Part shown: in pieces, positions 24,806 to 55,884 of the stretch | Layout of the letters: every line of letters begins with the position of its first letter | Numbering within the stretch: position 1 is the stretch's first letter | NCBI RefSeq assembly: GCF_004698125.1 | Contig: NZ_ML214297.1 | Location: forward strand, 1,178,001-1,242,000 | Direction: 5' to 3' | Origin: Halosimplex halophilum | Lineage (GTDB): Archaea > Halobacteriota > Halobacteria > Halobacteriales > Haloarculaceae | Length of the DNA stretch: 64,000 nucleotides | Made by a program: the position numbers and the translations under genes | Notes under the pieces: generated by a model | Seen by the model: the letters and a program-made list of their open reading frames with translations, nothing else | Told to the model about the DNA's origin: nothing | Database searches by the model: none

Positions 24806-25130
24806 ATGTCATATGTCTGGTGGGGTCAAATAGAGTATCACCTGCAATCTGGATCGCACACGGTCTACGCGCTCCAATACCGCTTCGTGACCCTCACGAA
24901 GCACCGCGCCGGTATCCTCACCGATGAGCGGCTGGAGCGCGTGGCTGAAGTCGCTCACGGGATTGCAGAGGACTTCGAGGCCGACATCAAAAACGTGGAC
25001 GGCGGCACCGACCACGTTCACATCCTGTTCACGACCAAACCCACCACCGACCTCACGAAGTTCATCAACTCGCTCAAGGGTGTCACCTCGCGCCGGATTC
25101 GGCAGGAGTACCCCGAGGTGAAACAGACGC
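24806..25130 (+). pseudogene. tnpA: Truncated IS200/IS605 TnpA (Y1 HUH transposase)
   Basis: The frame encodes about 108 residues of a single-strand transposase, including IEYHLQSGSHTVYALQYRF, GILTDERLERVAEVAHGIA and the HUH motif HVHIL. It then stops matching the family after YPEVKQT: the part that should hold the catalytic tyrosine and last helix (about 40 residues) is missing. The open frame continues, but as antisense of the neighbouring oppF. No tnpB is present. It sits between two importer operons and appears immobile. Confidence 0.85.
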
Positions 25131-55677: not shown

Positions 55678-55748
55678 GCGACGGTAGTGTAGTGGTATCA
55701 CAGGACCCTGCCACGGTCCTAACGCGAGTTCAAATCTCGCCCGTCGCA
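55678..55748 (+). tRNA. tRNA-Gly (anticodon GCC)
   Basis: 71 nt. Acceptor GCGACGG pairs with CCGTCGC, discriminator A; D-arm TAGTGTAGTGGTATCAC; anticodon arm GGACC-CTGCCAC-GGTCC with anticodon GCC; T-arm GCGAG-TTCAAAT-CTCGC. CCA is not encoded. No intron. The last 11 bases plus 3 more are repeated 133 bases downstream. Confidence 0.95.
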
Positions 55749-55751
55749 CTT
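55738..55751 (+). repeat. Direct repeat copy 1 (tRNA-Gly 3' end)
   Basis: CGCCCGTCGCACTT, the 3' end of the tRNA gene and three bases after it. An identical copy lies at 55871-55884. Duplicated tRNA ends are the usual trace of integrase-type insertion. Confidence 0.6.
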
Positions 55752-55809
55752 TTCCACAATTCGACGGCGCGGAGTCCCGTCTCCGCGCCTCACTGAAAAA
55801 TCGCTCCGA

Positions 55810-55869
55810 GATCTGAAGTAGCTCGGTCGCGCAGCGAGGTGAGCGAGCACGTCCGGGCTACTTCAGATC
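55810..55869. repeat. Hairpin-forming 13-base inverted repeat
   Basis: GATCTGAAGTAGC and its exact reverse complement separated by 34 bases. It ends one base before the second tRNA-end copy. Could be a terminator, an end of a mobile element or an RNA structure. Confidence 0.6.
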
Positions 55870-55870
55870 C

Positions 55871-55884
55871 CGCCCGTCGCACTT
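55871..55884 (+). repeat. Direct repeat copy 2 (tRNA-Gly 3' end, att-like)
   Basis: CGCCCGTCGCACTT, identical to the end of tRNA-Gly 133 bases upstream. Interpretable as the remaining attachment site of a lost integrative element. Confidence 0.55.

Follow-up and report, generated by a model that had tools for sequence, protein, structure and literature searches.

The 3' end of tRNA-Tyr is contained in the tandem units, known as rtT repeats, of the Escherichia coli tyrT locus, and these are, to our knowledge, confined to one locus and one bacterial group. They are the nearest known precedent for the haloarchaeal units described here; in both cases, tandem non-coding units follow a tRNA gene and each includes a piece of the tRNA 3' end. 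However, the haloarchaeal units are distributed across almost the whole class, follow at least 27 tRNA species, and possess a conserved hairpin core whose arms are fitted to each tRNA. A second comparison is provided by integrons. The integron R box is GTTRRRY, with crossover at G|TT. Integrons appear to resemble the units in their arrays, which have the newest member beside a fixed site, and in attC, an imperfect palindrome with an outer box, a spacer, a mismatched inner box and a tip whose length varies (PMC8946536); at the presumed crossover of the units, G|TT is also found. The palindrome, spacer, mismatch and tip look alike in both, although the T-T mismatch of the units was partly imposed by the search pattern. 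The units may work like attC sites but are not integrons, because the tests of box sequence, integrase and gene cassettes fail. Their T-arm motif, GTTCRA, has only GTT in common with GTTRRRY, the best universal recombinase candidate is below the IntI cut-off, and the units are nearly gene-free, use a tRNA where integrons use attI, and carry a 21-nt repeat.

Archaeal integrative elements that target tRNA genes (SNJ2-type and others) also act at the 3' end of the tRNA, of which they leave a repeat behind, but they are kilobases long, encode their own integrase and have att sites of variable length (PMC8371274; PMC7911831), whereas the units contain no integrase. The units keep the tRNA intact through a 3'-end direct repeat (nt 53-73), in common with elements moved by tyrosine recombinases. 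The PATEs and SMRs of Haloquadratum (PMC3119063) are likewise short and gene-free, have palindromes near their ends and are mobilised in trans, as the units may be; PATEs make no target duplication, however, while every unit has its 21-nt repeat. Moreover, unit-rich genomes exist without a Y1 transposase, and casposon or Cas1-type insertion differs from the units in that half of the unit-bearing genomes searched have no Cas1 homologue.

The window, that is, the whole stretch analysed, comprises 64,000 nt of Halosimplex halophilum (GCF_004698125.1, contig NZ_ML214297.1, 1,178,001-1,242,000), and positions are given in window coordinates. The initial annotation had reported a tRNA-Gly 3' end duplicated downstream behind a 13-base inverted repeat, and both its coordinates and the repeat proved correct. 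The sequence CGCCCGTCGCACTT occurs twice, at 55738-55751 and 55871-55884, with a spacing of 133 bp, and a perfect 13-bp inverted repeat (55810-55822 and 55857-55869), which forms part of a 26-nt palindrome of 85%, directly precedes its second copy. The duplicated tRNA end reaches further left than had been noted (55861-55881), and a second palindrome is present at 55766-55789. The parts behind tRNA-Gly(GCC) stand in the order small palindrome, large hairpin and copy of tRNA nt 53-73, which is also found behind tRNA-Gly and other tRNAs in relatives. The features are as follows.

55678..55748 (end 55748/9), plus strand: tRNA-Gly(GCC), nt 1-73, host of the unit (ARAGORN; Rfam RF00005, 67 bits)
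55728..55748, plus strand: tRNA nt 53-73, the 21-nt block repeated behind the unit (from sequence; block edges set on 89 other loci)
55749..55881, plus strand: the unit, 133 bp, starting at tRNA nt 74 and closing with the second copy (from sequence; the median elsewhere is also 133 bp)
55766..55789, no strand: first palindrome (HP1), 9-bp perfect arms and loop TCCCGT (read from sequence)
55809..55870, plus strand: second hairpin (HP2), match to family model R1 (cmsearch, 35.1 bits, E 3.2e-6)
55810..55822, plus strand: left arm of HP2, the T-arm copied in inverted orientation (from sequence)
55823..55856, plus strand: core of HP2, type GGTCGCGCAGCG...GAGCACGTCC, a type also found at Asp, Arg, Met, Val and Gly tRNAs
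55857..55869, plus strand: right arm of HP2, sharing bases with the T-arm portion of the second copy (from sequence)
55861..55881, plus strand: second copy of tRNA nt 53-73, 18/21 identical (from sequence)

We tentatively favour the reading that this feature is one unit of a family of small non-coding cassettes, common to Halobacteria, which a recombinase would insert at tRNA T-arms and which carry an attC-like hairpin. The window hairpin was recognised by model R1, built solely from other loci, with 35.1 bits (E 3.2e-6 in 238,735 bases). The 133-nt unit folded as RNA gave a z value of -5.5 (0 of 200 shuffles as good), and HP2 folded as single-stranded DNA gave -2.7 (1 of 200). The right arm of the window HP2 is an exact mirror of the left one, while congeners keep mismatches there, which suggests correction of the palindrome. 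Apart from the tRNA, the only Rfam match in the window was the L4 ribosomal protein leader RF03135 (54592-54691, 71.8 bits), upstream of ribosomal protein genes; this leader, described for Archaeoglobi, is also present behind the same tRNA locus in two congeners.

The distribution of the family was determined with a search pattern comprising the hairpin plus the T-arm, in which GAAC, AGTCGC, CGTCT and GTTCRA were fixed, and therefore those columns give no independent evidence. The scan returned at least 121 matches in at least 120 stretches. Among the 121 matches listed (named genomes), 100 are preceded by a same-strand tRNA at a distance of 30-340 bp, with 27 or more tRNA species represented; the others are 12 chance matches in bacteria and 9 haloarchaeal ones, four of which are located no more than about 100 bp from an end of the examined DNA. 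Sixty of the 100 tRNA-linked loci, picked by hand, were used to build the covariance model R1, which matched 190 of 194 Halobacteria genomes, with 1 to at least 26 matches in each of the 190, and 31 of the 196 genomes of a phylum-wide sample, all 31 being Halobacteria of the order to which the window belongs. Full counts in three genomes were 10, 22 and 32. The best 30 R1 loci of the Halobacteria survey included 26 within 205 bp of a tRNA, and 37 of the 39 R1 matches examined in three genomes follow a tRNA, at distances of up to 347 bp. An R1 match is not always a unit, since a dispersed repeat without the T-arm in genome G183 has the same core. This repeat, from the same order as the window, occurs away from tRNAs in at least seven copies in the one genome (L454-L462, e.g., L454 2090-2132) and consists of a hairpin core GGAAGTCGCAGC...AACGTCTTCC, followed in most copies by GGGACTCAAAGGGGC.

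At two sets of tRNA loci that were not selected for the feature, a copy of the tRNA end was found within 500 bp in 11 of 28 and 10 of 26 cases (about 40%), whereas foreign tRNA queries at the same stringency gave 0 copies. In these counts, as in those of array polarity below, copies that are the ends of other same-strand tRNA genes were masked. The 89 units measured span 97-410 bp (median 133 bp) and are typically about 100-150 bp long. Rfam searches of units at 8 loci gave no match at E 0.5, and no description of such units was found in the open-access PMC literature, though subscription papers could hold one. The units thus constitute a class-wide, tRNA-linked family with no Rfam entry and no description found in open-access PMC.

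The repeated block runs from tRNA nt 53 to nt 73, and its edge is sharp. At 89 of the 100 loci, identity at nt 73 was 93% against 44% expected, while at nt 74 it was 51% against 49%; leaving out 11 loci (identity below 17/21 or no T-arm) raises identity within the block, while its edges are unaffected. The left arm of HP2 is an inverted T-arm that tracks the tRNA-specific bases, agreeing at 4.85 of the 6 outer positions compared with 4.16 ± 0.06 after permutation (0 of 2000). Over 22 pairs in 60 sequences, 93.6% of cells pair, compared with 81.1% when shuffled, and 172 two-sided changes were counted against 57; slid structures reached at most 50% pairing. The inner helix is variable in sequence yet Watson-Crick paired (98/99 and 96/99 at the two best pairs). 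Of 99 cores, 83 have the tip C(GNA)G on the tRNA strand and 3 have it on the other strand, with 27 expected from shuffles. Loops of the d(GNA) type form very stable DNA mini-hairpins. The tip is strand-specific and therefore points to a single strand, but DNA energies calculated with ViennaRNA, by which the tRNA strand was more stable in only 40 of 99 cores, did not favour that strand, which counts against recombination through such a hairpin. Stems are more frequent in the spacers of other units than in shuffled sequence, and two palindromes lie near the unit ends. An outer inverted copy of the acceptor stem, expected for attC-like outer boxes, was dropped as a unit feature, the signal being weak (z 3-4 versus 1.5-2.5 in controls); this also argues against a cassette.

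The units vary between close relatives. Among eight Halosimplex genomes, the tRNA-Gly(GCC) locus has one unit in G000, G003, G005 and G006, three in G004 and none in G002 and G007, and G001 reads N. At the empty site of G002, the DNA that follows the tRNA runs on, as far as the next gene, like that beyond the last copy of G006. The two flanks join exactly, and therefore the occupied form differs by one unit plus the 21-nt repeat, gained or lost. The unit is polymorphic among congeners and belongs to no Rfam family; it is thus neither ancient and invariant nor part of a known RNA. In G003, the repeat extends 53 nt further into the flank, which looks like a tandem duplication and counts against insertion of cassettes. 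Two or more copies at up to 6 mismatches were present in 79 of 241 loci. In 59 arrays (copies with up to 3 mismatches), the tRNA-adjacent copy was the better match in 24 and the far copy in 0, with 35 ties.

Sequence is also shared between loci. In the window's genome, two tRNA-Asp genes have a common first unit (145/148 identical), whereas their upstream (75/155) and downstream (89/161) flanks are unrelated; one of the two has two further units and a truncated fourth. Behind both tRNA-Asp arrays, a shared repeat GCTGAAAGCCCTCG...GATATCCGCGCTCT, unrelated to the units, was seen by eye (L195 1700-1900; L211, reverse strand, 2020-2240). Cores are common to different tRNA types and genera, with both arms fitted to the local tRNA, as in the pair formed by Gly-CCC in G183 and Asp in G000 (score 0.95). 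In a comparison using 39 of 42 matches, clustering of cores by genome or by tRNA showed no notable difference (means 0.32, 0.38 and 0.29). The shared cores and the tRNA-Asp unit with unrelated flanks indicate that sequence moves between places.

According to the mechanism that we propose, each unit follows tRNA nt 73, bears two palindromes and ends in a fresh copy of nt 53-73, and new units would enter directly behind the tRNA, so that arrays would be extended beside the tRNA and degrade with distance from it. A site-specific recombination event at the T-arm (box B) may account for insertion, the strands being exchanged at G53|T54 or close to it. HP2, which carries the T-arm once inverted and once direct as its two arms, may be the recognition site, like a folded integron attC; in attC terms, it would comprise an outer box, an unpaired spacer, an inner box with a conserved mismatch and a variable tip. 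The enzyme, most likely a tyrosine recombinase, would act in trans; the window unit has no integrase gene between its repeats, and the units (97-410 bp) are too short to hold one. The left arm may stay complementary because the palindrome is corrected or because the folded site is under selection. Several points count against this mechanism. No circular or excised form of a unit was seen; recombination between the 21-nt repeats could have removed a unit, so that the precise gain would in fact be a loss; and the polarity could have arisen if the tRNA converts the copy closest to it. Cargo of the integron kind is nearly lacking as well, with one possible case of a gene-bearing unit at L307 (2834-4784), where a gene pair is flanked by tRNA-Ala on one side and by a unit hairpin and its 3' copy on the other, and no extra att copy was seen. 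The pair consists of an Mnt-like nucleotidyltransferase (Pfam) and a 162-aa partner without a family match, which looks HEPN-like by eye.

The alternative ranked next, which we regard as unlikely, is a target-duplicating insertion. An unrecognised transposase, an IS200/IS605-type Y1 enzyme (the units being PATE-like) or a Cas1-like integrase would cut the tRNA gene at nt 52/53 and again behind nt 73, leaving the 21-bp block as a target-site duplication. This agrees with the sharpness of the block on any tRNA and with the two palindromes near the unit ends, a trait described for the Haloquadratum PATEs (PMC3119063), but according to the same source IS605-type elements make no target duplication. 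The distribution of the enzymes does not follow that of the units. The Y1_Tnp profile was found in 27 of 40 genomes searched, being absent from 13 of the 36 unit-bearing ones, among them the unit-rich G120, G175, G166 and G069 (22 to at least 26 R1 matches), but present in all four without R1 matches. In the window's genome, the sole Y1 match found was partial (24860-25129 of the window, model positions 1-90 of 121). Cas1 was found in 21 of the 40 and is missing from 18 of the 36, including the window's genome and the unit-rich G168, G183, G091, G071 and G166. Furthermore, plain duplication leaves the fit of the internal left arm to each tRNA unexplained. A Xer-like tyrosine recombinase occurred in all 33 genomes searched; since these include four without R1 matches, its presence discriminates nothing, and it was rejected as a discriminator. 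The best universal candidate among these genes reached 19.9 bits against TIGR02249, for which the cut-off is 265, and 109 against XerA_Arch, for which it is 220. With Y1_Tnp and Cas1 patchy and the Xer-like gene universal, a tyrosine recombinase is thus a possible unit-moving enzyme.

A role as RNA was also proposed in the initial annotation, and we rank it lower and consider it improbable. The unit would be co-transcribed with the tRNA, and the hairpin would control processing, termination or a different RNA, rather like the rtT RNA of E. coli, whose transcript is mentioned in PMC2965389. The same-strand position of 100 of the 121 listed matches close to a tRNA, the strong covariation, the strand-specific GNA tip and the RNA fold of the window unit are all in line with such a role. 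The wobble test, however, gave 39 G-T and 29 A-C pairs (p 0.27) in the outer arms of HP2, whereas the G-T to A-C ratio in tRNA stems at the same loci was 12:1 in the acceptor and 26:0 in the T stem; a tRNA was kept if 6 or more of its 7 acceptor pairs formed, which biases the acceptor count to G-T over A-C, and the T stem had no further filter. The arms are therefore not maintained as RNA stems are, which points to DNA. This indication and that of the tip hold together, pointing to DNA and to a single strand. In addition, there is no Rfam family for the unit, its presence varies between congeners, and only about 40% of tRNA genes have one.

Duplication by the host without mobility is placed third among the alternatives and seems quite improbable; here, tRNA genes would undergo tandem duplication and gene conversion, template switching would perfect the palindromes, and the units would slowly be built and trimmed. 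This process would account for the repeat of G003 that takes in the flank, the window hairpin resembles a perfected form of the imperfect arms of congeners, and conversion would also yield polarity. Nevertheless, cores common to tRNA types and genera, and one unit behind two tRNA-Asp genes with unrelated flanks, argue against it.

Large integrative elements with their own longer att copies are separate from the units. At L407, tRNA-Gly is followed first by an element of about 8.1 kb, next by a long att copy, which extends from the anticodon arm to nt 73, and finally by two intact units; the same long att copy and unit are present in Halorubrum rubrum (L322/L408), where the contig ends before the tRNA. 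In L322 (4522-7987), two genes like PADLOC PD-Lambda-4_A (5.5e-30 and 2e-8) immediately precede the att copy belonging to an element at tRNA-Gly(TCC), and these defence-like genes were rejected as cassette cargo, the longer att copy indicating an ordinary element. No large element bounded by unit hairpins was found in 20 stretches near integrases in four Halosimplex genomes. A pleolipovirus remnant was likewise discarded; the attP region of HRPV-9 has no T-arm hairpin, and HHPV3 showed no GTTCRA.TC site in the scan. In viral collections, none of the at least 120 stretches listed for a loose pattern had a T-arm, and the specific pattern gave five stretches in viral_contigs, none a real unit by eye. 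The hairpin had only partial matches of 18-24 nt in 50,697 phage records, and one unit searched against plasmids gave no match. The initial annotation had left a choice between an integration site that has lost its element and a very small element. The latter part is supported, as a defined unit of 97-410 bp that lies behind tRNAs across Halobacteria and is gained or lost between congeners, and the former is not: the scar of an ordinary integrative element whose body was lost is the least likely origin and a very improbable one, even with a tRNA 3'-end repeat at the expected place and at a site that archaeal integrases generally use (PMC8371274), given the compact units of one uniform type that occur in arrays and at 27 tRNA species, the longer att copies that the large elements at L407 and L322/L408 own upstream of units, the HRPV-9 attP region, and the lack of anything unit-like in the five viral_contigs matches.

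The insertion of hairpin cassettes by a recombinase at tRNA T-arms thus heads the ranking. Its wider form, which we consider possible though doubtful, is that a host recombinase adds such cassettes at the T-arm of almost any tRNA, in ordered, newest-first arrays whose arms are rewritten to the host tRNA and which occasionally carry genes; this would be an archaeal counterpart of the integron on tRNA platforms. If the units are an RNA feature instead, a class-wide tRNA-linked RNA has been missed so far. If they are mobile, insertion at essential genes would be ongoing throughout the class, with a record of the order of insertion, and the units would provide a testable system for how archaeal tRNA genes turn into integration hot spots.
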